From an uncultured bacterium (lineage in GTDB: Bacteria; Bacillota; Clostridia; Oscillospirales; Oscillospiraceae): 44,225 nucleotides of DNA. Shown here piece by piece: positions 1,331 to 27,972 of this stretch (within the stretch, counting starts at the first letter, position 1; each line of letters starts with the position of its first letter). The stretch spans positions 1 to 44,225 of the forward strand of contig CAMNQF010000030.1 of NCBI GenBank assembly GCA_946548895.1, written 5' to 3'. Made by a program: the position numbers and the translations under genes. The notes under the pieces were generated by a model. It did no database searches, was not told where the DNA came from, and worked only from the letters and a program-made list of their open reading frames with translations.

Positions 1331-1966
1331 ATGACCCGAGAGGAAGCCTTTGAATTCCTGGACCGCACCGCGCGGGGGATTGCCGAGATGTTCGGCTCCA
1401 CCTGCGAAACCCTGGTTCACGACATGGGGGTGCCCACGCACCCCATTTTATCCATCTACAACGGCCATGTGTCCGGCCGGGAGGTGGGCTCCACCATGGA
1501 CATCATGGGCATTGGCCTGGAGCTGGACGAGCAGGCGGCCACCACCGACCAGGTGAACCTGGCCGCCGTCACCCCCGACGGGCGGCAGACCAAGTCTTCC
1601 ACCTTCCACATGATTGGGGACGGGTACAACCTGGCCCTGGGCATTAACTTTGACTATACCTCCCTGGTGTACGCCAACCGCATTTTAGAGGACCTGATGA
1701 GCGCCCGGTCCGACCTGCGCTCCGCCCTGTGGCAGCCGGGGGATTCCCGGCAGCTGGCGGACCTGTTTGAGCAGTGCGCGGCGGAGCTGGGCAAGCCGCT
1801 GGAAGTGTTCACCAAGGCGGACCGGCTGAAGGTGATCGCACTGCTGCGGGAGCGCAGCGCCTTCTCCTACCGCAAATCGGTGCCCTATGTGGCCGGGCGG
1901 CTGGGGGTGTCCCGGTACACCGTGTACAAGTATCTGGAAGAGGTGGGGGCGGACGCGCCGGAGTGA
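1331..1966 (+). CDS. YheO/DauR-like transcriptional regulator (PAS-like domain plus HTH)
   Basis: A 211-residue one-component regulator. Residues about 1-120 match the YheO PAS-like domain (FGSTCETLVHDMG, PILSIYNGHVSGREVGS), which is thought to sense a small ligand. The C-terminal 60 residues hold an HTH_22 domain (LKVIALLRERSAFSYRKSVPYVAGRLGVS, then RYTVYKYLEEV). The best-known relative is DauR, a repressor of D-arginine catabolism genes; nothing shows the same ligand here. ATG 1331 follows an AGGAGGAGG site at 1314-1322. It stands alone upstream of a dipeptidase with its own promoter, so a role in amino-acid or peptide use is only a guess. Confidence 0.85.
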   Translation: MTREEAFEFLDRTARGIAEMFGSTCETLVHDMGVPTHPILSIYNGHVSGREVGSTMDIMGIGLELDEQAATTDQVNLAAVTPDGRQTKSSTFHMIGDGYNLALGINFDYTSLVYANRILEDLMSARSDLRSALWQPGDSRQLADLFEQCAAELGKPLEVFTKADRLKVIALLRERSAFSYRKSVPYVAGRLGVSRYTVYKYLEEVGADAPE

Positions 1967-15141: not shown

Positions 15142-15170
15142 TTGACAGTCCCGCCCCTTTCGGGTATACT
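15142..15170 (+). promoter_or_regulatory. Promoter of the importer-lar operon
   Basis: -35 TTGACA (15142-15147), 17-bp spacer, -10 TATACT (15165-15170). Start near 15177 gives a roughly 150-nt leader before the binding-protein gene. Confidence 0.85.
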
Positions 15171-15176
15171 ATCCCC

Positions 15177-15308
15177 ACAGCGGCCCGCAGGAAGCGGGCG
15201 GGGATGCCGAAGCATCCGGGCCCGTCATGGGCGGTACGCGCACGAAATTGGAAAGGTATGCCAAGAAGGCATACGGCCCTCTCCGAAGAGGGGCCGTGTG
15301 CTTTTTTT
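15177..15308 (+). promoter_or_regulatory. Structured leader with terminator; candidate riboswitch/attenuator
   Basis: Four consecutive hairpins: GCCCGC/GCGGGC (15183-15199), GGATGC-CGAA-GCATCC (15202-15217), GCCC/GGGC (15220-15232), GTATGCC/GGCATAC (15256-15274). An intrinsic terminator follows (ACGGCCC...GGGCCGT, 15273-15297, then CTTTTTTT to 15308), all upstream of the start codon. The fourth hairpin shares two bases with the terminator stem, and GGGCC at 15218-15222 could pair with its left arm. This is the architecture of a transcriptional OFF/ON switch. It does not match by eye the cobalamin, NiCo, TPP, SAM, T-box or ykkC consensus. Context suggests nickel or NPN status as signal. Confidence 0.7.
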
Positions 15309-15328
15309 GCGTTTTAAAGGAGGAACGG

Positions 15329-16882
15329 ATGAGAAGACAACGCTCTGCCCTGCTGGCCGCCCTGGCGCTGGCCCTGGCCCTGGCGGCCTGCGGCGGCCCG
15401 CCCGCCGGCAGCGCCGGCGGCGCGCCCTCTACCCTGGTCTACGGCAGCGCCGACTACACCCGCATCAACCCGGCCATGGACGAGCACGGCGAGATCAACG
15501 CCCTGCTGTTCAACGGCCTCACCGCCCACGACGGCAAAAATCAGATCGTCCCCGGCCTGGCGGAGCGCTGGGAGTACGACGAGGACAGCCGCACCTATAC
15601 CTTCCACCTCCGGGAGGGGGTGAAGTGGCACGACGGCCAGTCCGTCACCGCCGGCGACGTGAAGTTCACCATCGAGGCCATCATGGACCCGGCGAACGGC
15701 GCGGAAAACGCCCCCAATTACGAGGACGTGGAGGAGATCACCGTGCTGGACGAACGGACGGTGGCCTTCCGGCTGGCGGAGCCCAACGCCGCCTTCCTGG
15801 AGTACATGACCATGGCGGTCCTGCCCCGCCACCTGCTGGAGGGGGAGGATATGCAGACCTCCGGTTTCTTCCGCGCCCCCGTGGGCACCGGCCCTTACAA
15901 GCTGGAGAGCTGGGACCCGGGCCAGGCCATCGTGCTGGTGAAGAATGAGGACTACTACCTGGGCTGCCCCAAAATCGACCGCGTTGTGTTCAAAATCGTG
16001 GGGGACGACAACGCCCAGGCCGTCCAGCTGGAGTCCGGCGAGCTGGACCTGGCCCTGCTGGACCCCCGGAACGCCCGGAATTTCGCGGGCCGGGAGGGCT
16101 TTGCCTGCTACGACATGATGACCGCCGACTACCGGGGCATTCTGTTCAACTTCCGCAACAGCTACTGGACGGAAAACCGGGACCTGATCCCCGCCGTCTG
16201 CTGCGCCATCGACCGGCAGGCCATCATCGACTCCGTCCTCCTGGGCCAGGGTATGCCCGCCTACGGCCCCCTCCAGCGCAACATCTACAACAACGGGGAT
16301 GTGGAACGGTACGAGTACGACCCGGACCGGGCCCGGTCGATTCTGGAGGGGGCGGGCTGTGTGATGGGCCCGGAGGGCTATTACCAGCGGGACGGCGTGG
16401 AGGTGGGCTTCACCATCAGCGTGATGCCCGGGGAGCAGGACCGCATCGACATCGCCCAGGCCGCCGCCCAGCAGCTCCGGGAGGCGGGCATCCGCTGCAC
16501 CGTGGACCTGCCCGCCAAAATCGACTGGGCCGGCCAGATGGCGGGGCTCATCGGCTGGGGCAGCCCCTTCGACGCCGACGACCACACCTACAAGGTGTTC
16601 GGCACGGACAAGGGGGCCAACTACAGCGGCTACTCCAATGGGAAGGTGGACGAATACCTGGCCCTGGCCCGCCAGACCGCCGACCCGGACCTGCGCCGGG
16701 AGTACTACGCCCGGTTCCAGGAGGAGCTGGCCGCCGACCCGCCCTACGCCTTCATCTGCTACATCGACGCCAACTACGTGGCGGACGCGGCGGTGCGGGG
16801 CATCGACCCGGACGCCGTCCTGGGGCACCACGGGGTGGGCATTTTCTGGAACGTCCACCAGTGGACGGTGGAGGAGCCCTGA
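15329..16882 (+). CDS. ABC transporter substrate-binding lipoprotein, family 5 (probable nickel-binding, NikA-like)
   Basis: A 517-residue SBP_bac_5 protein. Signal peptide RRQRSALLAALALALALAAC ends in a lipobox. The fold markers are LVYGSADYTRINPAMDEHGEINALLFNGLTA, LAERWEYDEDSRTYTFHLREGVKWHDGQSVTAGDVKFTIE and PVGTGPYKLESW. Family members bind peptides, nickel chelates or other solutes. Nickel is inferred because the same unit ends in larEBC. ATG 15329 follows AAAGGAGG; an in-frame extension upstream would run through the terminator and is rejected. The downstream gene starts 17 nt after its stop. Confidence 0.85.
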   Translation: MRRQRSALLAALALALALAACGGPPAGSAGGAPSTLVYGSADYTRINPAMDEHGEINALLFNGLTAHDGKNQIVPGLAERWEYDEDSRTYTFHLREGVKWHDGQSVTAGDVKFTIEAIMDPANGAENAPNYEDVEEITVLDERTVAFRLAEPNAAFLEYMTMAVLPRHLLEGEDMQTSGFFRAPVGTGPYKLESWDPGQAIVLVKNEDYYLGCPKIDRVVFKIVGDDNAQAVQLESGELDLALLDPRNARNFAGREGFACYDMMTADYRGILFNFRNSYWTENRDLIPAVCCAIDRQAIIDSVLLGQGMPAYGPLQRNIYNNGDVERYEYDPDRARSILEGAGCVMGPEGYYQRDGVEVGFTISVMPGEQDRIDIAQAAAQQLREAGIRCTVDLPAKIDWAGQMAGLIGWGSPFDADDHTYKVFGTDKGANYSGYSNGKVDEYLALARQTADPDLRREYYARFQEELAADPPYAFICYIDANYVADAAVRGIDPDAVLGHHGVGIFWNVHQWTVEEP

Positions 16883-16899
16883 GCCTGAGAGGAGGAGCC

Positions 16900-17916
16900 A
16901 TGCCGGAACTGCTGGAAGTGAAAAACCTGTCCGTCAGCTTCTTTACCCCCGCCGGAGAGGTTCAGGCGGTGCGGAACGTGAGCTTTTCCCTGAAAGCCGG
17001 GGAGGTGCTGGCCCTGGTGGGGGAGTCGGGCTGCGGCAAGAGCGCCCTGTGCCGGAGCATTATGAAGCTCCTCCCCGGGACGGCGCGGATCAAGTCCGGC
17101 TCCATCCTGGCCAACGGCGCGGACATCACCCATTACGGGGAGAGGGACATGAAAAAGCTGCGGGGCCGGCTGTTCGCCATGGTGCTCCAGGACCCCATGA
17201 CCGCCCTCAACCCCACCATGACCGTGGGCGCGCAGATCGCCGAGGCGGTGCGGGTCCACCGGCCCCGTATCTCCCGGGCGGCCCTCCGGGACAGGACGGC
17301 GGAGCTGATGGAGCTGGTGGGCATCGACCGCCCCCGGGAGCGGATGGAGCGTTACCCCCACCAGTTTTCCGGCGGGATGCGCCAGCGGGCGGTGCTGGCC
17401 GCCGCCCTGGCGGGGGACCCGGCCATCCTTTTTGCCGACGAGCCCACCACCGCCCTGGACGTGACCGTCCAGGCCCAGATCCTGGACCTGTTCCGGGACC
17501 TCCAGCGGCGGCTGGGGACGGCGGCGGTGTTCGTCACCCACGACCTGGGGGTGGTGGCCCGGGTGGCCGACCGGGTGGCGGTGATGTACGCCGGGAAGAT
17601 CGTGGAGACGGGCACGGTGGAGGAGGTCTTTTACGACCCCCGGCACCCCTACACCTGGGGGCTGCTGCGGGCCCTTCCGGCGCTGGCCGGGGGGCGGGAC
17701 AGCCTGTACGCCATCCCCGGTATGCCCCCCACCCTGGTGAATCCCCCCAAGGGGGACGCCTTCGCCTGCCGCAATGAGTACGCCCTGGCCATCGACTACG
17801 AGGAGGAGCCGCCCATGTTCCCGGTCACCGACACCCACAGCGCCGCCACCTGGCTGCTGGACCCCCGCGCGCCCAAAATCGCGCCGCCCGCGGGAGGTGG
17901 GGCCGTTGGCCGGTGA
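16900..17916 (+). CDS. ABC transporter ATP-binding protein 1 (NikD/DppD-like)
   Basis: A 338-residue ATPase of the oligopeptide/nickel importer family. Walker A GESGCGKSALC (Ser-Ala instead of the more usual Ser-Thr), Q-loop VLQDPMTALNP, signature FSGGMRQRAVLAAAL, Walker B ILFADEPTTALD, switch His VTHDLGVV. The C-terminal oligo_HPY region begins at RHPYTWGLLRALPAL. It pairs with the next ATPase to drive the importer. ATG 16900 follows GAGGAGGAG. The 3' end overlaps the next gene by 11 bp. Confidence 0.9.
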   Translation: MPELLEVKNLSVSFFTPAGEVQAVRNVSFSLKAGEVLALVGESGCGKSALCRSIMKLLPGTARIKSGSILANGADITHYGERDMKKLRGRLFAMVLQDPMTALNPTMTVGAQIAEAVRVHRPRISRAALRDRTAELMELVGIDRPRERMERYPHQFSGGMRQRAVLAAALAGDPAILFADEPTTALDVTVQAQILDLFRDLQRRLGTAAVFVTHDLGVVARVADRVAVMYAGKIVETGTVEEVFYDPRHPYTWGLLRALPALAGGRDSLYAIPGMPPTLVNPPKGDAFACRNEYALAIDYEEEPPMFPVTDTHSAATWLLDPRAPKIAPPAGGGAVGR

Positions 17917-18811
17917 AGTCCTGCTGGACGCGCAGGGGCTGGCCCACGCCTTCCCCCTGACCCGGACCATGTCCGTCAAGGCGCTGGACGGCCTGTCCTT
18001 CCAGATCCGCCGGGGGGAGGTCTACGGCCTGGTGGGGGAGTCGGGCTGCGGCAAGTCCACCGCCGCCCGGTGCGTCATGAACCTGCTCCGCCCCCAGGCG
18101 GGCCGGGTTCTGTACCGGGGGATCGACACCTGCGACCCCAAAGCCTTCCGGGCCAACCGGCGGATGCTGCAGCGGAACCGGCAGCTGATTTTTCAGGACT
18201 CCGCCGCCAGCCTGGACCCCCGCATGAGGGTGGGGGACATCATTGCCGAGCCCCTGCGGCTCCAGCGCGTTACGCCGCCCCGGGGGACCTGCCGGGACGA
18301 GGCGGCGTTCCAGATGAAATACGTGGGCCTGGACCCCGGGTATCTGGACAAGTACCCGGGGGAGCTGTCCGGCGGGCAGCGGCAGCGGGTGGCCATCGCC
18401 CGGGCGCTGGCCATGGAGCCGGAGCTGCTGGTGGCGGACGAGCCCATCGCTTCCCTGGACGTGTCCATCCAGGCCCAGATCGTCAACCTGTTCAAGCACT
18501 TGCAGGCGGAGCACGGCTTTTCCTTTCTGTTTATCGCCCACGACCTGGCCATGGTGGAGTTTCTGTGCAGCCGGGTGGGGGTGATGTACCGGGGGCGGCT
18601 GGTGGAGGAGGCCCCCGCCAGGGAGCTGTTCGCCCGCCCCCTCCACCCGTACACCAGGGCGCTGGTGTCGGCCATCCCCATCCCGGACCCCCGCCGGGAG
18701 CGGGCCCGGAAGCCGGTGGAATTCCGCGGGGGGGAGCTGCCGCCGGGGGGGCTGTGGACGGAGGCGTCCCCCGGCCATTTCGTGCTGGAAGAGAGGGGGG
18801 ACGCGCCGTGA
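17906..18811 (+). CDS. ABC transporter ATP-binding protein 2 (NikE/DppF-like)
   Basis: A 301-residue ATPase, partner of the preceding one. Walker A GESGCGKSTAARC, Q-loop IFQDSAASLDPRM, signature LSGGQRQRVAIARAL, Walker B LLVADEPIASLD, HDLAMVEFLC switch and C-terminal LHPYTRALVSAIPIPDP. I place the start at TTG 17906 because GGGAGGT lies 7 nt upstream and the protein then begins AGEVLLDAQGLAHAF; a GTG at 17897 overlaps that site. The long upstream extension in this frame is antisense-like shadow of the first ATPase. It overlaps the next gene as GTGA. Confidence 0.87.
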   Translation: MAGEVLLDAQGLAHAFPLTRTMSVKALDGLSFQIRRGEVYGLVGESGCGKSTAARCVMNLLRPQAGRVLYRGIDTCDPKAFRANRRMLQRNRQLIFQDSAASLDPRMRVGDIIAEPLRLQRVTPPRGTCRDEAAFQMKYVGLDPGYLDKYPGELSGGQRQRVAIARALAMEPELLVADEPIASLDVSIQAQIVNLFKHLQAEHGFSFLFIAHDLAMVEFLCSRVGVMYRGRLVEEAPARELFARPLHPYTRALVSAIPIPDPRRERARKPVEFRGGELPPGGLWTEASPGHFVLEERGDAP

Positions 18812-19800
18812 AGCTGGGAAGCTGGGCCGTTCGGACCGGGAAAAAGCTGCTGGCGCTGCTGTTCAGCTTGCTTGCGCTGGCCACCGCCGTGTTTTATATC
18901 TCCCGGCTGGCCCCCGGGGACCCGCTGGTAGCTTATTACGGCCAGCGGGCGGAGCGGCTGACCCCGGACCAGCGGGCCCAGGCGGAGGAGCGGCTGGGGC
19001 TCAACGACCCCATCTGGGTGCAGTACGCCCGCTGGTGGGAGAACGCCCTCCAGGGGGATTTCGGCATCTCCTACAAGTACAAAATGGACGCGGCGGAGGT
19101 TATCGCCAGCCGGGCGGGCAATACGCTGGTGCTGGGCGGGGCCGGGTTCGCGCTGATCTTCGTCCTGGCCCCCCTGCTGGGGGCGCTGTGCGCCTGGCGG
19201 GAGGGCGGCCCGCTGGACCGGGTTCTGTGCAGGCTGGGCGCCGCGGTCAGCTGCATCCCGGAGTTCTGGCTGTCCCTGGTGGCCATCCTGGTGTTCTCCG
19301 CCGCCCTGGGCTGGCTGCCCAGCTCCGGGGCGTACTCCGTGGGGGGCGGCGGCCTGGGGGACCGGATCGCCCACCTGATCCTCCCCCTGGGGGTGGTGGT
19401 GGCCGGGCACCTGTGGTACTACGCCTACATGGTCCGCAGCCGGGTGCTGGAGGAGGCCCGGGCGGACTATGTCCTGCTGGCCAAGGCCAAGGGGCTGGGC
19501 CGGGGAAGGGTGCTGCTCCGCCACTGCCTGCGGTGTGCCCTCCCCTCCTACCTCAGCCTCATGGCCGTCTCCGTGCCCCACATACTGGGGGGAACCTATG
19601 TGGTGGAGATGGTGTTCTCCTACCCCGGCCTGGGCACCCTGGCCTACGAGAGCGCCCGCTACCAGGACTACAACCTGCTGATGCTGCTGTGCATCCTGTC
19701 CGGCGGGGTGGTGATGTGCAGCGGCATGGCGGCGCAGTGGATCAGCGGGCGGCTTGACCCGCGGGTCAGGGCCCGGGATGGGGAGGGGGCGGAGCCATGA
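18808..19800 (+). CDS. ABC transporter permease 1 (NikB/DppB-like)
   Basis: A 330-residue inner-membrane permease. It has an N-terminal helix (LLALLFSLLALATAVFYISRLAPGDP), a periplasmic loop with GLNDPIWVQYARWWENALQGDFGISY typical of DppB/NikB, and about five further helices. The EAA-type loop is EEARADYVLLAKAKGLGRGRVLLRHCLRCAL. GTG 18808 overlaps the upstream stop (GTGA) behind a GGGGGG site. Its stop overlaps the next ATG (ATGA). Substrate inferred as nickel or a nickel chelate from context. Confidence 0.9.
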   Translation: MKLGSWAVRTGKKLLALLFSLLALATAVFYISRLAPGDPLVAYYGQRAERLTPDQRAQAEERLGLNDPIWVQYARWWENALQGDFGISYKYKMDAAEVIASRAGNTLVLGGAGFALIFVLAPLLGALCAWREGGPLDRVLCRLGAAVSCIPEFWLSLVAILVFSAALGWLPSSGAYSVGGGGLGDRIAHLILPLGVVVAGHLWYYAYMVRSRVLEEARADYVLLAKAKGLGRGRVLLRHCLRCALPSYLSLMAVSVPHILGGTYVVEMVFSYPGLGTLAYESARYQDYNLLMLLCILSGGVVMCSGMAAQWISGRLDPRVRARDGEGAEP

Positions 19801-20675
19801 GCGGGCCCTTTGAACGGGTGGGCGTCCGGCCCCTGCCGCCGGCGCCCCCGCAGCCCCGCCAAAGGCGGGGCTGGCCGGTGTGCTCCGCCGTGATTCTGGC
19901 GGCGGTGGTCCTGGTATGCCTGGGGAGCGGCCTGCTCCCCGGCGGGGACCCGGCCTATATGGACCTGCAAAATTGCGGCGTCCCCCCCAGCGCCCGGTTC
20001 TGGTTCGGCACGGACGCCATGGGGCGGGACGTGTTCGCCATGATCTGGGCCGGGGGACGGGTGTCCCTGTTCATCGGGGCGGCGTCCGCGGCGGCCTCCA
20101 CCGCCATCGGCGTGGCGGTGGGGGCGGCGGCCGGCTGGGCCCCCGGCTGGGTGGACGGCCTTCTGATGCGGCTGACGGAGATTCTGCTCAGCGTGCCCAG
20201 CCTGCTGCTGGTGGTGCTGCTCCAGGCGGCGCTTGGCCGGCCCGGCCCGTTGAGCCTGGCCCTGGCCCTGGGGGCGGTGGGCTGGACGGGCATCGCCAAG
20301 GTGGTGCGCACGGAGGTGCGCCAGATGCGCCGGTGCGGGTACATCCAGGCGGCAAAATCCATGGGCGGCGGCTTCTTCTACCTTCTCCGGCGGCATATGG
20401 CCCCCAATTTTTTCCCCTCCATCCTGTTCATGATTGTGATGAACGTGCGCAACGCCATCGCGGCGGAGGCCACCCTCAGCTTTATGGGGCTGGGCCTGCC
20501 GCCGGAGACCGTCACCTGGGGGGCCATGCTGTCCCTGGCGGAGAAGGCGGCGCTCGGCGGCGCGTGGTGGGCCGTCCTGGCCCCCGGGATCTTTCTGGCG
20601 GCCGTCCTGCTGTCCATGACCAGCCTGGGCGAGCGCCTGCGGGGGCGCGCCGGCCAGGGGGAGGGCAATCTGTAA
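19797..20675 (+). CDS. ABC transporter permease 2 (NikC/DppC-like)
   Basis: A 292-residue permease, partner of the preceding one. The N-terminal helix WPVCSAVILAAVVLVCLGSGLL is followed by FWFGTDAMGRDVFAMIWAGGRVSLFIG, the DppC/NikC hallmark, then about five helices. The coupling loop is RQMRRCGYIQAAKSMGGGFFYLLRRHMAPNF. It completes a five-gene importer. The next 142 bp before larE hold a second promoter and a structured leader. Confidence 0.9.
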   Translation: MSGPFERVGVRPLPPAPPQPRQRRGWPVCSAVILAAVVLVCLGSGLLPGGDPAYMDLQNCGVPPSARFWFGTDAMGRDVFAMIWAGGRVSLFIGAASAAASTAIGVAVGAAAGWAPGWVDGLLMRLTEILLSVPSLLLVVLLQAALGRPGPLSLALALGAVGWTGIAKVVRTEVRQMRRCGYIQAAKSMGGGFFYLLRRHMAPNFFPSILFMIVMNVRNAIAAEATLSFMGLGLPPETVTWGAMLSLAEKAALGGAWWAVLAPGIFLAAVLLSMTSLGERLRGRAGQGEGNL

Positions 20676-20817: not shown

Positions 20818-21570
20818 ATGGAATTGAGGGATTTTTTCGCGGAACACCCCCGGGCGGCGCTGGCCTTTTCCGGCGGGGTGGACTCCGCCTATCTGCTGTA
20901 CGCCGCCCTGGCGTGCGGGGCGGACGTGCGGCCCTATTTTGTGGACTCGGCGTTCCAGCCCCGGTTCGAGCTGGCCGACGCCCGCCGCCTGTGCGGGGAG
21001 CTGGGCGCGGAGCTCCGGGTGCTGCCGGTGGACATCCTGGCGGAGCCCCGGGTGGCCGCCAATCCGCCGGACCGCTGCTACCACTGCAAGCGGGCCATCT
21101 TTTCCGCCGTGGCCGCCGCCGCGGCCCGGGACGGGTACCCGCTCCTGCTGGACGGCACCAACGCCTCCGACCCGGAGGGGGACCGCCCTGGTATGCGGGC
21201 CCTGCGGGAGCTGGCGGTGCGCTCCCCCCTGCGGGAGTGCGGCCTGGCCAAGGGGGAGGTCCGGCGCAGGTCCCGGGAGGCGGGGCTGTTCACCTGGAAC
21301 AAGCCCGCCTACGCCTGCCTGGCCACCCGCGTCCCCGCCGGGGAGCCCATCACGGCGGAGGCGCTGGCCCGGACCGAGCGGGCGGAGAGCTTTCTGTCCT
21401 CCCTGGGCTTTACGGATTTCCGGGTGCGGCTGCTGGGCGGCTGCGCCCGCGTCCAGGTGGCGGCGGGGCAGCTCCCCCTGGCCCTGGAGCGGCGGAAAGA
21501 AATCATTTCAGAGTTGAAGCGGTACTACGGCGGCGTGCTGCTGGATTTGGAGGCGCGGGATGAATCATGA
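20818..21570 (+). CDS. larE: LarE, ATP-dependent sulfur transferase of nickel-pincer cofactor synthesis
   Basis: A 250-residue PP-loop enzyme. It adenylates the pyridinium dicarboxylate mononucleotide made by LarB and installs sulfur, yielding the dithiocarboxylate that will bind nickel. The PP-loop is FSGGVDSAYLLY at residues about 16-27. Cysteines occur in DRCYHCKRAIF and in AYACLATRVPAGEPI; the latter region holds the sulfur-donating Cys in sacrificial-type LarE. Only one Cys is seen there rather than a cluster, favouring the sacrificial over the [4Fe-4S] type, though this needs alignment. Length is normal. It overlaps larB by 11 bp. Confidence 0.93.
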   Translation: MELRDFFAEHPRAALAFSGGVDSAYLLYAALACGADVRPYFVDSAFQPRFELADARRLCGELGAELRVLPVDILAEPRVAANPPDRCYHCKRAIFSAVAAAAARDGYPLLLDGTNASDPEGDRPGMRALRELAVRSPLRECGLAKGEVRRRSREAGLFTWNKPAYACLATRVPAGEPITAEALARTERAESFLSSLGFTDFRVRLLGGCARVQVAAGQLPLALERRKEIISELKRYYGGVLLDLEARDES

Positions 21571-22315
21571 GGTAAAACGAATTTTAGAGGCGGTCCGGGC
21601 GGGGGAGACCACGGTGGACGACGCCCTGCTGAAGCTGAAGGAGGCCCCCTTTGAGGACATCGGCTACGCCAAGGTGGACCTGCACCGCAAGGTCCGCCAG
21701 GGGGCGGCGGAGGTGATCTACGGCGCGGGCAAGACGCCGGAGCAGATTGCGGGCATTCTGTCCGCCATGAAGCGGGCCGGACAGGACACGGTGCTCATCA
21801 CCCGGCTGTCCCCGGAGTCCGCCGGGGCGGTGGCCCGGGCCCACCCCCTGGACTACCACCCGGACGCCCGGGTGGGCATCGTGGGAGAGCTCCCCCCGCC
21901 GGACGGGCTGGGGACGGTGGTGGTGGCCACCGGCGGCACCAGCGACATCCCCGTGGCGGAGGAGGCGGCGCTCACCGCCCAGGTGCTGGGCAGCCGGGTG
22001 ACCCGGCTGTACGACGTGGGAGTGGCGGGGCTCCACCGCACCCTGGCCCACCTGGACGAGATCATGACGGCCAGCGTCATCATCGCCATCGCCGGGATGG
22101 AGGGGGCCCTGGCCAGCGTCATCGGCGGGCTGGCCGACTGCCCGGTGATCGCCGTGCCCACCAGCGTGGGCTACGGCGCGTCCTTCGGCGGGCTGTCCGC
22201 CTTGCTGTCCATGCTGAACTCCTGCGCCAGCGGCGTGTCGGTGGTCAACATCGACAACGGCTTTGGCGCGGGCTATCTGGCCAATATGATGAACCATATG
22301 GAGGCGAAACCGTGA
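21560..22315 (+). CDS. larB: LarB, pyridinium-3,5-biscarboxylate mononucleotide synthase
   Basis: A 251-residue enzyme that carboxylates nicotinic acid adenine dinucleotide and cleaves its phosphoanhydride, the first step of nickel-pincer nucleotide synthesis. The C-terminal half is PurE-like: VVVATGGTSDIPVAEEAALTAQVLG, YDVGVAGLHR, ASVIIAIAGMEGALASVIGGL and PTSVGYGASFGGLSALLSMLNSCASG are LarB signatures. ATG 21560 has GGAGG 6 nt upstream inside larE. Its stop overlaps the larC start as GTGA, so LarE, LarB and LarC are translationally coupled. Confidence 0.94.
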   Translation: MNHEVKRILEAVRAGETTVDDALLKLKEAPFEDIGYAKVDLHRKVRQGAAEVIYGAGKTPEQIAGILSAMKRAGQDTVLITRLSPESAGAVARAHPLDYHPDARVGIVGELPPPDGLGTVVVATGGTSDIPVAEEAALTAQVLGSRVTRLYDVGVAGLHRTLAHLDEIMTASVIIAIAGMEGALASVIGGLADCPVIAVPTSVGYGASFGGLSALLSMLNSCASGVSVVNIDNGFGAGYLANMMNHMEAKP

Positions 22316-23547
22316 GGATTTTGTATTTAGACTGCGCCATGGGGGCCGCCGGGGATATGCTGGCCGCGGCGCTGCTGGAGCTTTTGCCCGACCCGGACGC
22401 CTTTGTGGCGGAGCTGAACGGCCTGGGCATTCCCGGCGTCCGCTTCCGCCGGGAGCGGGCCGTGAAGTGCGGCATCGCCGGCATCCATCTGGCGGTGGAG
22501 GTGGACGGCGTGGAGGAGGAGAGCCATGACGTCCACGGGCACGAGCATGGGCATGAGCACGGCCACGATCACACGCACGAACACGGGCACGGGCACCACC
22601 ATTCTCACAGCGGGATGGGGGACATTGAGCATATCGTCCGGGACCACCTGGCCCTGCCGGAGGGGGTGAAGGACCACATCATGGCGGTGTACGGCCTGAT
22701 CGCCCAGGCGGAGAGCCACGCCCACGGCGTGCCGGTGGAGGAGATCCACTTCCACGAGGTGGGGGCCATGGACGCCGTGGCGGACATCACGGCGGTGTGC
22801 CTGCTGATGGACCGGCTGGCGCCGGATCAGGTGGCCGCGTCCCCCGTCCACGTGGGCAGCGGGCAGGTGCGCTGCGCCCACGGAATCCTGCCGGTGCCCG
22901 CCCCCGCCACCGCCCACATCCTCCGGGACGTGCCCATCTACGGCGGGCAGATCCAGGGGGAGCTGTGCACCCCCACCGGGGCCGCCCTGCTGAAGCACTT
23001 TGTCTCCCGGTTCGGCCCCATGCCCCCCATGCGGCCGCGGGCCCTGGGCTACGGCTGCGGGAAAAAGGACTTTGAGGCGGCCAATTGCGTCCGGGCCATG
23101 CTGGGCGAGGACGGGGACGGGGAGGACCAGGTGTGCGTCCTGTCCTGTAACCTGGACGACATGACCGCCGAGGGGGTGGGCTTCGCCATGGAGCGGCTCT
23201 TTGAGGCCGGGGCGCTGGACGTGTACACCGTCCCCATCGGCATGAAGAAGTCCCGCCCCGGCGTGCTTCTTCGGGCGGTCTGCCGCCCCCAGGACCGGGA
23301 GGCCCTGGCGGGAACCATATTCCGCCACACCACCACCCTGGGCATCCGGGAGAGCGTCTGCCGCCGGTATGTGCTGGAGCGGAAGCTGGAGGCCCTGGAT
23401 ACCCCCTGGGGGCCCGTCCGCAGGAAAACAGCCAGCGGCTTCGGCGTGTCCCGGGCCAAGTACGAGTACGAGGATCTGGCCCGGATCGCCAGGGAGCGGG
23501 GAATCGGCCTGGACCAGGCGAAGAGACTGGTTGAGGACGGAGAGTGA
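22312..23547 (+). CDS. larC: LarC, CTP-dependent nickel insertase (nickel-pincer cofactor synthesis)
   Basis: A 411-residue cyclometallase that inserts nickel into the dithiolated precursor using CTP. The N-terminus ILYLDCAMGAAGDMLAAALLELL is typical. Residues 72-99 form a His-rich stretch with 15 His, likely nickel storage or delivery. Conserved HFHEVGAMDAVADI, CTPTGAALLKHF and VCVLSCNLDDMTAE follow. GTG 22312 sits behind GGAGG. In Lactiplantibacillus plantarum larC is split and joined by frameshifting; here it is one uninterrupted frame. It closes the operon with a terminator 7 nt later. Confidence 0.94.
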   Translation: MRILYLDCAMGAAGDMLAAALLELLPDPDAFVAELNGLGIPGVRFRRERAVKCGIAGIHLAVEVDGVEEESHDVHGHEHGHEHGHDHTHEHGHGHHHSHSGMGDIEHIVRDHLALPEGVKDHIMAVYGLIAQAESHAHGVPVEEIHFHEVGAMDAVADITAVCLLMDRLAPDQVAASPVHVGSGQVRCAHGILPVPAPATAHILRDVPIYGGQIQGELCTPTGAALLKHFVSRFGPMPPMRPRALGYGCGKKDFEAANCVRAMLGEDGDGEDQVCVLSCNLDDMTAEGVGFAMERLFEAGALDVYTVPIGMKKSRPGVLLRAVCRPQDREALAGTIFRHTTTLGIRESVCRRYVLERKLEALDTPWGPVRRKTASGFGVSRAKYEYEDLARIARERGIGLDQAKRLVEDGE

Positions 23548-23586: not shown

Positions 23587-23768
23587 CGCGTGATTCAGGG
23601 CGGACGCCGGTTTCGCCTCCTTCAGCGCCTCCCGGCCGGCGGGTGTTTTCCGTTCCCGTCCCGGCAGGATAACTCCCCCTTGTTTTTCCGAACTTTCTGT
23701 GGTAAGCTTATTCTGGGATAGGTTGGCGCGCCGGAGGGCGGACGCCGAAACGAAAGGAGATCGTGGCC

Positions 23769-24887
23769 ATGGTGCACAGGGCGCGGGCAGGCAGGAGCGG
23801 ACAGGGGTCGCTGGCCTTGGCGGCGCTGGCCGCGGTGTGCCTGCTGGGGCTGGCTGGGTGCGAGGGGGACGGGGCGTCCTCCCCGCCGGATCCGTCCGCG
23901 GCGTGGAGCGAACCGGGCGGCGTCCAGGTGGAGGCGGTGAACTTTGACCACCAGCTGGACGGCTACCGGCCCAGAAAAAAGAAATACAACTTCTACTTTA
24001 CCTATAAGACGGTCCATCCCTGGTGGGACGCTGTGGCGCTGGGCATCGAGGACGCGGCCAGGCAGTTCGAGGAGCTGGGCGTGACCGTTGACTACGAGTA
24101 TCTGGCCCCCGCCTCCGCCTCCGCCCAGGACCAGATCCGGCGGCTGGAGGAGGCCGCCGCCCGGAATTTCGACGTCATCGGGGTGGACGTGGCGGACGTG
24201 GAGGCGGTCACGCCGGCCATCAACGCCCTCATCGACCAGGGGCAGCGGGTGATGACCTTTTCCAGCTCCGACGCCTCCCGGGAGGACGGCTGCCGCCGCA
24301 TCGCCTATGTGGGCAACACCCACAACTATGAGGACGGGGCGGACCTGACCCGGGCCCTGTGCGAGAAGCTGGGCGGGCGGGGCAAGGTGGCTGTTCTGGT
24401 GGGGACCCGGGGCGCCCCCTGCCATGAGGACCGGGCCCGGGGCACCCAGGACGTCATCGCCCAGTACCCGGACATGGAGGTGGTGGAGATTGCGTACGAC
24501 GAGGACAGGGCGGACAAGGCCTATGACCTCACCCGGGAATTTCTGGCCCGGCACTCCGACCTGGCGGGCATCGTGTGCTGCAACATGAGCAACTCCGTGG
24601 GGGCGGCACGGGCGGTGCTGGCGGCCGGCCGGGAGGATGAAATTGTCATTGTGGGCATGGACCACGACCAGGAGGCCCTGGGCTATCTCCGGGACGGGGT
24701 TATTTACGCCCTGGGGGTGCAGGACTGCTACTCCATCGGTTTCAACACCGTCCAGGTGGCGGTGAAGATCGCGGACGGACTGCTGCCCGGGGAGGAGTAT
24801 TCGGAAATGACGGAGGAGAGCACCACCATCGTCTATCAGGACGGGGCGGCGGCAATGCTCCAGACGCTGTATGGCGAAATCGATTGA
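23769..24887 (+). CDS. Sugar-type periplasmic-binding lipoprotein (PBP1/Peripl_BP_4), probable sensor partner
   Basis: A 372-residue lipoprotein: signal peptide with LLGLAGC lipobox, linker, then a LacI/RbsB-type domain ([93 protein letters not shown]). No permease or ATPase follows; instead the gene overlaps a hybrid histidine kinase by 17 bp, so it likely presents a ligand to that kinase rather than feeding a transporter. ATG 23769 is preferred over GTG 23763 because AAAGGAGA sits 9 nt before it. A candidate promoter, TTGTTT-17-TAAGCT, lies about 70 bp upstream. The ligand is unknown. Confidence 0.85.
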
Positions 24888-27800
24888 GAATGGCGGGACA
24901 GCGGACATGGGCGCTTCGCGGCAAGACGGGATCAATGAAAAGCAGAAAAGGCTGACGGTGGCCTTCGGCCTGTGGGGCGGGGTAATCATCGCGGCGATTT
25001 TGCTGGTGACAACGGTATGGGTGCTGGGCAGCGCCAGGGCGGGTACCAGCCAGGCGGTCTCCAAGGTGAGCGAGTTCTACCTGGAGGAGCTGGCCGGGCG
25101 CAGGGCCCGGGTGGTGTCCGAGCGGCTGAAAAGCGGCTTCAGCTACATGGGGAAGGCCATTGACATATTGGAGGCCTCCGACCTGGCGTCTCAGGATGCC
25201 CTGCGGCAGTACCTGGGGAAGATTGAACGGCTGTATGGGGTGGATAAGTTCGCCATGGTGGACGCCAACGGCATCGTCTACACCGAGCACAGCACCACCT
25301 CCGGCCTGAGCCGGTATCCCTTCCTGGCCCAGGAGCTGACAGAGCCGGTGCTGGTGATGTCCAACCTCTACGGGGCGAAGAAGCAGGTCATTCAGGCCAT
25401 CCCCGTGGAGGGGGTCTACTTCCGGGGGGTGGAGATGCGGGCGTGCTTCATCCAGGTCAATATCACCGAGATGCTGGAGGCCCTCGCCCTGGAGAGCGGC
25501 GACAATGAGACCTACTGCAACATTTACTACCGCAACGGAGAGAGCCTGACCAACAGCGGCTTCGGCTACCTCACTTCGAGGGACAACATCCTGACCGCCC
25601 TGGGGAGTGCCGTGATGGAGCCCGGCTCCAGCCTGGAGCAGCTCATCAACGATTTTTCCAGCGGCGCCCCGGGGCAGATCTCCTTCCGCTATGAGGGAAT
25701 CCGGGAGGACCTGTGCTACCGCCCGGTGGAGGGCACCGATTGGATGCTCACCATCCTCATCCGGGACAACGTCATCAGCGAGCAGATCGGCTCCATCAGC
25801 ACGGGCATGATGCGGCGCAGCGTCATCCAGATTACCGTGACGGTGCTGTCCATGCTGGGGGTGTTCCTGGGCCTGATCTGGCAGTCCCGGCGGAGCGACA
25901 AGCTCTTGCTGGAGCGGGAGAGGGCGGACGGGGACCGCATCCGGGCCGCCTACGCCCAGATCGAGCGGGAGCAGACCGCCATGGGGATGATCCACGCCGC
26001 CATGGGCTCCGGACAGTGGGGCATGGAGTTTGACGAAAACGCCAACATGGTGTCATGCACCTGGTCGGACGTGTTTCGGAATATGCTGGGCTACGAGAGC
26101 GAGGAGGACTTTCCCAACCTGCTGGAGTCCTGGTCGGAGCTGCTCCACGAGGAGGACCGGGACCGGGTGCTGGACGCCTATTGGGCCGCCGTGCGGGATT
26201 ACACCGGCGGCACCATCTATGACGTGGAGTACCGCCTGTTCACCAGGCACGCCGGCTGGCGCTGGTTCCACGCCGCCGGGCGGCTGTCCCGGCGGGAGGA
26301 CGGCTCCCCTATCACCTTTGTGGGCCTGTTTGTGGACATAGACGACAATAAGCGGATGGCGGCCCAGCTGGAGGAGCAAAAGATCGACCTCCAGGACGCC
26401 CTGGCGGCGGCCCAGCACGCCAACCGCGCCAAGACCACCTTCCTCAACAATATGTCCCACGACATCCGCACCCCCATGAACGCCATCATTGGCTTCACCT
26501 CCCTGGCCGCCGCCCACATCGACAACACCGAGCAGGTCCAGGACTACTTGGCCAAAATCACCACCTCCAGCAACCACCTGCTCAGTCTTATCAACGATGT
26601 GCTGGACATGAGCCGCATTGAGAGCGGGAAGATGAAGATTGAGGAAAAGGAGACTTCCCTGCCCGAGATCATGCACGACCTGAAAACCATCGTCCAGTCG
26701 GACATTGCCTCCAAGCAGCTGGAATTCTACATCGACACGGCGGACGTGGTGAACGAGCACGTGCTGTGCGACAAGCTGCGGCTGAACCAGGTGCTGCTCA
26801 ACCTGTTGAGCAACGCCATGAAATTCACCATGCCCGGGGGCATTGTCAGCGTCCGGGTCATTCAGAGGGGCGGGGCCCCGGAGGGATGGGCCTCCTACGA
26901 CTTCCAGGTGAAGGACACCGGCATCGGCATGAGCCGGGAGTTCCTGGCCCACGTGTTTGACCCCTTTGAGCGGGAGCGGTCCAGCACGGTCAGCGGCATC
27001 CAGGGTACGGGGCTGGGCATGGCCATCACCAAAAACATTGTGGACATGATGGGCGGCACCATCTCCGTGGCCAGCGAGGAGGGCAAGGGGGCCACCTTCA
27101 CGGTGTCCCTCCGATTCCGGGTCTGCTCCGGCCCGGTGCGGCAGGAGGAGATCCCCCAGCTGAAAGGCCTGCGGGCCCTGGTGGCTGACGACGATTTCAA
27201 TACCTGTTCCAGCGTGACCAAAATGCTGTCCACCGTGGGGCTGCGGCCCGACTGGACCACCTCCGGCAAGGAGGCGGTGCTGCGCGCCAAGCTGGCCTGG
27301 GAGCAGGGGGACGAGTACGCCGCTTTTATCATCGACTGGCTCATGCCGGACATGAACGGCATCGAGGTGGTCCGGCGGATACGGGCCATCATCGGCGAGG
27401 AGAAGCCCATCATCATCCTCACGGCCTACGACTGGTCGGACATTGAGGAGGAGGCCCGGGACGCGGGCGTCACCGCGTTCTGTTCCAAGCCCATCTTTTT
27501 GTCGGAGCTGCGGGAGCTGCTGGAATCGCCCTTTGCCCCCCGGGAGGAGGCGGAGGATAAGGCGGAGGAGCCCGCCTCTTTCCAGGGGAAGAAGATCCTG
27601 CTGGTGGAGGATAACGAGCTGAACCAAGAGATTGCCGTGGAAATCCTCCAGAACGCCGGCTTCGTGGTGGAGGTGGCGGACGACGGCGGAACCGCCGTGG
27701 AGCGGATGCGGGCGGCGGCGCCGGGCCAGTACGACCTGATCCTCATGGATATCCAGATGCCCATTATGGACGGCTATGAGGCCACCCGGCGGATCAGGGA

Positions 27801-27972
27801 GCTGGACGACCCCCAGGTCGCGGGGATTCCCATTATCGCCATGACGGCCAACGCCTTTGACGAGGACCGCAAGGCGGCGCTGGAGGCGGGGATGAACGGG
27901 CACATCGCCAAGCCCATCGACGTCCCCAGGCTGATGGAGCTGCTGGAGGATATTTTGGGGGCAAAACTTTAA
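24871..27972 (+). CDS. Hybrid sensor histidine kinase with extracellular sensor, PAS and two receiver domains
   Basis: A 1033-residue membrane kinase. Order: helix 30-52, extracellular Cache-like region to about 312, helix 317-335, PAS about 370-495, HisKA with phospho-acceptor His530 ([16 protein letters not shown]), HATPase with N box [18 protein letters not shown] and GTGLGMAIT, receiver 1 with Asp822 ([11 protein letters not shown]), receiver 2 from about 908 with Asp960 ([15 protein letters not shown]). There is no Hpt or DNA-binding output domain, so a separate partner must exist elsewhere. The start could also be ATG 24907. It is coupled to the preceding binding protein, which probably senses the stimulus. 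Confidence 0.9.

Follow-up and report, generated by a model that had tools for sequence, protein, structure and literature searches.

The question that this locus raises is what kind of RNA element separates the promoter of an importer-lar operon from its first gene, and to which signal it responds. The operon lies in a 44,225-nt stretch of DNA from an uncultured bacterium of the Oscillospiraceae (contig CAMNQF010000030.1), the whole of which we call the window, and its parts are the following.

15142..15170, + strand: promoter, TTGACA (15142-15147), 17-nt spacing, TATACT (15165-15170); 11 of 12 consensus matches
15183..15199, + strand: hairpin H1, GCCCGC-AGGAA-GCGGGC, 6-bp stem, loop AGGAA with C-G closing pair; from sequence and covariation
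15202..15217, + strand: hairpin H2, GGATGC-CGAA-GCATCC, 6-bp stem, loop CGAA with C-G closing pair; from sequence and covariation
15218..15254, + strand: spacer without conservation in the comparison of leaders
15256..15274, + strand: hairpin H3, the antiterminator hairpin, GTATGCC-AAGAA-GGCATAC, loop AAGAA with C-G closing; from sequence, alignment and energies
15269..15308, + strand: intrinsic terminator (hairpin 15269-15301, seven T at 15302-15308); from sequence, alignment and energies
15316..15323, + strand: ribosome-binding site AAAGGAGG, from sequence; ATG at 15329
15329..16882, + strand: solute-binding protein of a Nik/Opp-type importer (PF00496, 276 bits; best NCBIfam models Opp4A and nikA, both below cut-off)
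16861..20675, + strand: four more importer genes (two ATPases, two permeases), from open reading frames, starts approximate
20818..21570, + strand: larE (TIGR00268, 238 bits, above cut-off)
21560..22315, + strand: larB (PF00731, 60 bits)
22312..23547, + strand: larC (PF01969, 461 bits)

The first importer ATPase gave PF00005 and oligo_HPY matches, and the other three of these importer genes were assigned by their order and look. On the 3' side of larC (23763-27969) stand genes for a periplasmic sugar-binding-type protein and a hybrid sensor kinase, which probably form a separate signalling unit.

Structure of the leader

The original prediction had described a promoter, a leader with four hairpins, a terminator overlapping the fourth of them and a ribosome-binding site, and every one of these parts is present in the sequence. 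All four hairpins can be found, and three of them (H1, H2 and H3) are conserved, but the one counted third (15220-15232) falls in the non-conserved spacer. Bases 15269-15274 are common to H3 and the terminator, so that the two are mutually exclusive, and the predicted energies are -25.2 kcal/mol for the terminator and -10.8 kcal/mol for H3. A terminator and an antiterminator that exclude each other in a 5' leader are the general hallmark of attenuation, here read from sequence and structure prediction. The prediction of a terminator-controlled leader holds in that this arrangement is found and is conserved before nik/lar genes; its further proposal, that the RNA itself binds the ligand, is the less likely reading (see below).

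The 136-nt leader folds better than all of 200 shuffled sequences (z -5.0), but with the terminator removed (15177-15267) z is only -1.7 and 14 of 200 shuffles do equally well, so the excess stability comes mostly from the terminator. In the minimum-energy fold of the whole leader, which is GC-rich, the 3' arm of H1 pairs with the spacer and H1 is absent; H1 in this sequence therefore rests on comparison with relatives. A simple scan of the window for a narrow terminator pattern did not list the leader's terminator.

A conserved RNA family

The original prediction could fit the leader to no known class, and covariance searches led to the same result. The window had no match at the gathering score among the Rfam 15 models, the cobalamin riboswitch included, and the NiCo riboswitch (RF02683) gave none there either at the gathering score or with E up to 10. 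Seven homologous loci likewise gave no match in their leaders, the sole match in these loci being RNase P in L034. Low-threshold matches in the window (Ref64, rsmX and others) were at chance level and were set aside.

With the solute-binding protein encoded downstream as query, public genomes yielded 170 relatives, the best 80 of which were kept as loci, and scripts found the leader in 38 of these 80. Further leaders were later read by eye in script-negative loci (L061, L062, L069, L070, L073, L083, L086 and L097). The operon with its leader is rare in the window's own genus (3 of 42 genomes), and BLASTN with the whole leader against 99 relatives gave two convincing matches besides the window, in G029 and G023.

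The family plan is H1 (loop ANGAA), H2 (loop NGAA), a free spacer, and H3 (loop ANGAA), with a C-G pair closing the H1 and H2 loops and with the 3' arm of H3 doubling as the 5' arm of the terminator; few bases are conserved beyond loops and closing pairs. The distance from the H1 loop to the H2 loop is 19-21 nt in all 17 leaders in which both are listed, the window included. The spacer can be only a few nucleotides long or reach about 130 nt; where H1 is listed, the H1 and H3 loops lie 64-164 nt apart, being close only in L094, L095 and L103, where H2 is missing and an H1-type hairpin stands directly before H3. The H2 loop is decayed in L089 and L100. A variant seen by eye between the DUF3842 gene (see below) and larB in L049, L060, L091 and L092 consists of a short hairpin, GTC-ANGAA-GAC, wholly buried by the terminator.

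Collecting homologous leaders and checking them for covariation, as had been suggested, showed the hairpins to be kept and the H1/H2 covariation to be strong. Among 31 leaders, all 12 base pairs of H1 and H2 have changes on both sides while the loops stay fixed, and the covariation score is 0.718, against 0.269 for shuffled and at most 0.220 for slid alignments. Alignment A1 left out L057, L087, L093 and L095. H3 is paired in 99.6% of cells and the terminator in 93.7%, percentages inflated by the script-picking of the rows of alignment A2 for having such hairpins; double changes occur in 7 of 10 terminator pairs and in 2 of 7 H3 pairs, the H3 count being reached by 279 of 500 shuffles. Taken alone, H3 has weak covariation support.

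An independent test is provided by models R1 and R2, which were built from H3 and the terminator only, without H1 or H2. Beyond the first alignment they reached 45 bits or more at 16 places, and an H1/H2-type hairpin lies upstream in 15 of the 16 (14 of the first 15 tested and the sixteenth, L154, on G434:C47), as compared with 288 of 20,000 random windows (1.4%). The single strong place without such a hairpin, L127, has the loop GCGAA; L221, also among the 16, coincides with a row of the second model. On these comparisons, the window leader is a member of a conserved RNA family.

Genes behind the leader

Model R1, run on 391 genomes of the class, matched 47 at E up to 0.01, and 30 loci were listed; 15 of those listed, counting the window, combine the hairpins with a related gene, and 15 do not. 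The 15 dropped include L151, with an H3-type hairpin and an ECF S gene but without H1, and L137, where leader-like hairpins and a terminator (around 1501-1556, minus strand) stand with no recognisable gene behind them. In the order to which G353 belongs (343 genomes), model R2 produced 21 rows, of which 12 are leaders and nine are not (L234 without a reading by eye).

Nearly all copies with H1/H2 precede larE/B/C, an importer (of one of three unrelated types), a pair of unknown membrane proteins or an ECF S gene, the last often with a kinase-like gene behind it, in the following arrangements.

Nik/Opp-type importer, with or without lar genes: L163, L217
larE-larB-larC-cbiM-cbiQ: L160
FecCD permease, ATPase and binding protein, then larE/B/C: L164; divergent FecCD in L131
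methyltransferase and another Nik/Opp-type importer: L155 (binding protein 320 bits as Opp5A_nikA, cut-off 600)
membrane proteins memA and memB, several before lar genes: L154, L156-L159, L166, L218-L221
larE or larC directly: L131, L149, L223-L225, L227, L231
lone ECF S component: L132/L162, L142, L151

The names memA (about 140 aa) and memB (104 aa; for example L156:531-938 and L156:954-1265) are our own; neither protein has a Pfam or NCBIfam match, and together they are possibly a new transporter for nickel or for the nickel-pincer nucleotide (NPN). The importers of the regulon would carry nickel, judging from their family and neighbours.

In a blind count lar genes are present at 22 of 38 leader loci and at 9 of 42 others (p 0.0012), which probably understates the link between leader and lar genes, since leaders or variants were later read by eye in script-negative loci; this reading concentrated on loci with lar genes, and the leaders so found were kept out of the p value. 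L055 has lar genes and no visible leader. LarC is present in 16 of the 18 leader genomes of the R1/R2 target set, and LarA is above cut-off in only 11 of the 18, so that seven genomes would make NPN with no recognised enzyme to use it.

The recurrence of the element before gene sets unrelated to one another, and fixed loops on compensated stems, bear on the proposal that the leader is conserved and unregulated, its hairpins only protecting the mRNA or fixing the level of read-through. The case for regulation is one of sequence comparison, which leaves this proposal some room, but both observations argue against it and we regard it as improbable.

ECF S components and a possible salvage route

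L142, L151 and L162 encode ECF S proteins of one family (44-48% identical), which occurs in 155 of 391 genomes of the class (for example L162:1375-1923 and L251:1492-2019). At 11 of the 30 best ECF S loci the gene is preceded by an H3-type hairpin with a T run, which in seven of the 11 follows an H1-type hairpin; the other 19 have no H3-type hairpin of this kind. Given that model R2 scores few of the 30 (one strong, L236, and two more at E <0.001), it is the hairpin scan, together with reading, that supports the ECF S leader class. Within 280 nt ahead of the L258 ECF S gene an H3-type hairpin with a T run precedes an H1-type hairpin, possibly as two leaders in tandem.

Thirteen genomes have the ECF S gene behind an H3-type hairpin (the 11 scanned, G190 and G433), and among them LarA is found in 11 and LarC above cut-off in two (G219 and G433). 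Eight of the 13 also have a scored H1- or H2-type hairpin (seven and G190); all eight have LarA and one has LarC. In 23 other ECF S genomes, which comprise 19 scanned without a leader and four outside the scan (G132, G163, G242, G272) and do not give a class-wide base rate, LarC is above cut-off in nine (three of them weak and partial) and LarA in 13. Several of the LarA matches in ECF S genomes are weak (47-55 bits). LarC is split into two overlapping frames at G219:C1:2777367-2778601 and G433:C12:237408-238594, and larC1/larC2 of Lactobacillus plantarum are likewise split.

Behind the ECF S gene L151, L249 and L255 encode a uridine-kinase-like protein of about 190-210 aa (PF00485 just above cut-off); in L244 and L251 such a domain, below cut-off, ends a protein of 350-356 aa, and at six further ECF S loci the downstream proteins have a similar start. 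The ECF S gene adjoins larA in G298 and larC in G294.

A genome with LarA and without LarC would need NPN from outside, and import of the NPN nucleoside followed by its phosphorylation is a natural reading of this gene content. The pattern suggests that the LarA-positive, mostly larC-less ECF S genomes may salvage NPN by way of the putative ECF S importer and the kinase. Unrelated importers, larE/B/C and ECF S genes in larC-less genomes would together point to the NPN pathway more than to Ni2+ alone.

What the leader responds to

RNA polymerase would make H1 and H2, then H3, then the terminator. Given that H3 and the terminator are mutually exclusive and that the terminator is far more stable, transcription would by default stop before the operon. 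A binder on the ANGAA/NGAA loops of H1, H2 and H3 would hold H3, thereby block the terminator, and allow the importer and larE/B/C to be expressed. In some ECF S leaders, read by eye, it is the 5' rather than the 3' arm of H3 that the terminator uses; in all leaders read, those of the ECF S type included, H3 and the terminator are exclusive and H3 carries the conserved loop. Since H3 both carries this loop and excludes the terminator, occupancy of the loop should mean ON, which is the opposite of the feedback expected of a cofactor on its own synthesis genes.

The leader is, with a probability of about 0.5, a cis-acting attenuator of an NPN regulon, bound most likely by a trans-acting antiterminator that reports the need for NPN, with DUF3842 as a candidate. 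The binder would be an RNA-binding protein other than an ANTAR protein. Fixed purine loops on variable stems, a spacer that is free and an H2 that is sometimes absent speak for protein binding sites rather than for one compact aptamer.

On the other hand, H1, H2 and H3 might together bind NPN or a close precursor and so decide between H3 and the terminator as a metabolite riboswitch. The regulon (synthesis, metal import and a putative salvage importer) is like that of a cofactor riboswitch, no regulator linked to all copies was found, and the constant distance between the H1 and H2 loops suggests a defined module. The cobalamin riboswitch likewise sets one RNA over cofactor synthesis, metal import and ECF salvage, and the present regulon resembles those of cobalamin and of the Moco riboswitch candidate, with CbiM- and FecCD-type metal import among its genes; the RNA, however, is unrelated and made of small hairpins, and the cofactor would be NPN. 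In the guanidine-II (mini-ykkC) riboswitch, two hairpins with identical short loops (ACGR) have variable stems and a variable linker, a layout that our leader shares in its small hairpins with like short loops; its loop sequence is different, it has no Rfam match, and its regulon is one of NPN genes and importers. Against a riboswitch stand the sign, a conserved loop on an antiterminator hairpin giving ON where cofactor feedback calls for OFF, the dispensable H2 with the free spacer, and the scant conservation outside loops and closing pairs. The ON sign, the free spacer and the loss of H2 are what place the trans-acting antiterminator first and direct binding of NPN second, and the latter we consider possible rather than probable.

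A riboswitch for Ni2+ (or Co2+), the other ligand first proposed, would suit the many controlled genes that resemble nickel importers. The NiCo riboswitch is a four-way junction that controls exporters; our leader shares with it a terminator and nickel-related genes, but has no cmscan match and no four-way junction, and stands before importers and cofactor synthesis genes. Importers would moreover be expected to be OFF with their metal, not ON, and the larC-less genomes G353 and G190 have the leader before an ECF S gene of a family other than CbiM/NikM. We consider a metal-sensing riboswitch very unlikely.

In layout the leader is closest to the dual-hexaloop antiterminator RNA bound by the ANTAR proteins EutV, NasR and AmiR, as described in PMC3369931 and PMC8934654. 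Both have small hairpins with conserved purine loops and closing pairs, the last hairpin overlaps the terminator, and binding would give read-through. The ANTAR target has two hairpins with hexanucleotide loops carrying A1 and G4, whereas the present leader usually has three, with loops of five (ANGAA) or four (NGAA) nucleotides. The ANTAR linker is tightly limited, and a linker longer by 20 nt abolished EutV antitermination (PMC8934654), in contrast to linkers of a few to about 130 nt here, mostly far beyond what EutV tolerates. An ANTAR protein (PF03861) is present in 18 of 26 leader genomes, which were chosen for carrying the leader except for G487 (variant) and G433 (H3 only); the eight without one include three genomes (G162, G425 and G243) that are 99-100% complete. 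Within the window's genus such a protein occurs in 37 of 42 genomes, so its presence there is uninformative. An ANTAR protein thus seems an unlikely binder, and a shorter-loop ANTAR target is the reading to which we give the least credence. CsrA was rejected as well, the loops ATGAA, ACGAA and AAGAA being without GG; CsrA recognises a GGA loop motif.

DUF3842 as a candidate for the sensor

For the trans-acting antiterminator, clustering of open reading frames in search of a shared regulator singled out DUF3842 only (PF12953, 176 bits), at 10 of 48 leader loci and none of 44 others. With tblastn it was found in four of the 42 script-negative importer loci, all four of which carry leader variants by eye, and was not found near 27 of the 38 leader-positive importer loci, some of which are incomplete. 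It is not in the window.

Eight importer loci have a same-strand DUF3842 gene immediately ahead of the leader; its protein match ends 53-93 nt away and its frame closer still, and at two more loci the gene is 637 and 908 nt upstream. It stands directly upstream on the same strand at 13 other loci (L128, L129, L132, L134, L142, L218-L220, L224, L225, L227, L231 and L251), three of them in larC-less genomes (G353, G190 and G327), and is convergent downstream of the ECF S operon at L151, L256, L257 and L260. Across thirteen copies 54 columns are invariant, one of them a cysteine; besides this residue, the conserved motifs are DAQGGGxG, TAVGTN and ATGEN (for example in L052:2472-2894). Structure prediction (pLDDT 79) gives this small protein a Rossmann-like fold; its Foldseek matches were all broad, most of them to dehydrogenase types, and no RNA-binding domain was recognised. 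By its position DUF3842 would be the best candidate for the sensor or a part of it; no open-licence PMC paper naming it was found.

Meaning of the element

Terminator-antiterminator control is already known, and it is the RNA family, its loop geometry and its regulon that appear to be new. In the open-licence PMC literature, neither control of NPN synthesis at the RNA level nor an NPN importer or NPN kinase was found described. The available parts of PMC11770544 and PMC7583248, which treat LarA relatives and in the latter case also their gene neighbours, and of PMC2965389 and PMC2667541 make no mention of such an element. Tentatively, and with somewhat less confidence than we place in the attenuator, we propose that this is the first known regulatory RNA for NPN, whether as an NPN riboswitch or as the binding site of an antiterminator that senses NPN, for which DUF3842 is the candidate, and that it is accompanied by NPN salvage through ECF S and a nucleoside kinase in LarA-type Clostridia unable to insert nickel.

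As a marker of NPN genes, the leader leads to a regulon of importers, two unknown membrane proteins, a possible salvage pathway and a candidate sensor, and it offers a second loop geometry for hairpin-based antitermination that can be compared with ANTAR. LarA relatives are reported in PMC7583248 to be expressed ubiquitously in the gut microbiota of healthy humans, and the element hints at regulation, perhaps salvage, of an unusual nickel cofactor in gut Clostridia.

Importer operons without the leader

Importer operons that lack the leader often begin with a palindrome, CCCCC-N-GGGGG, before a CTTG -35-like box. Among 26 loci shown it lies upstream of the binding-protein gene in, for example, L035, L040, L041, L043, L044, L047, L048, L053 and L055. 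A strict pattern for it matched 5 of the 42 script-negative loci and none of the 38 leader loci, and the palindrome resembles an operator of the CsoR/RcnR type.
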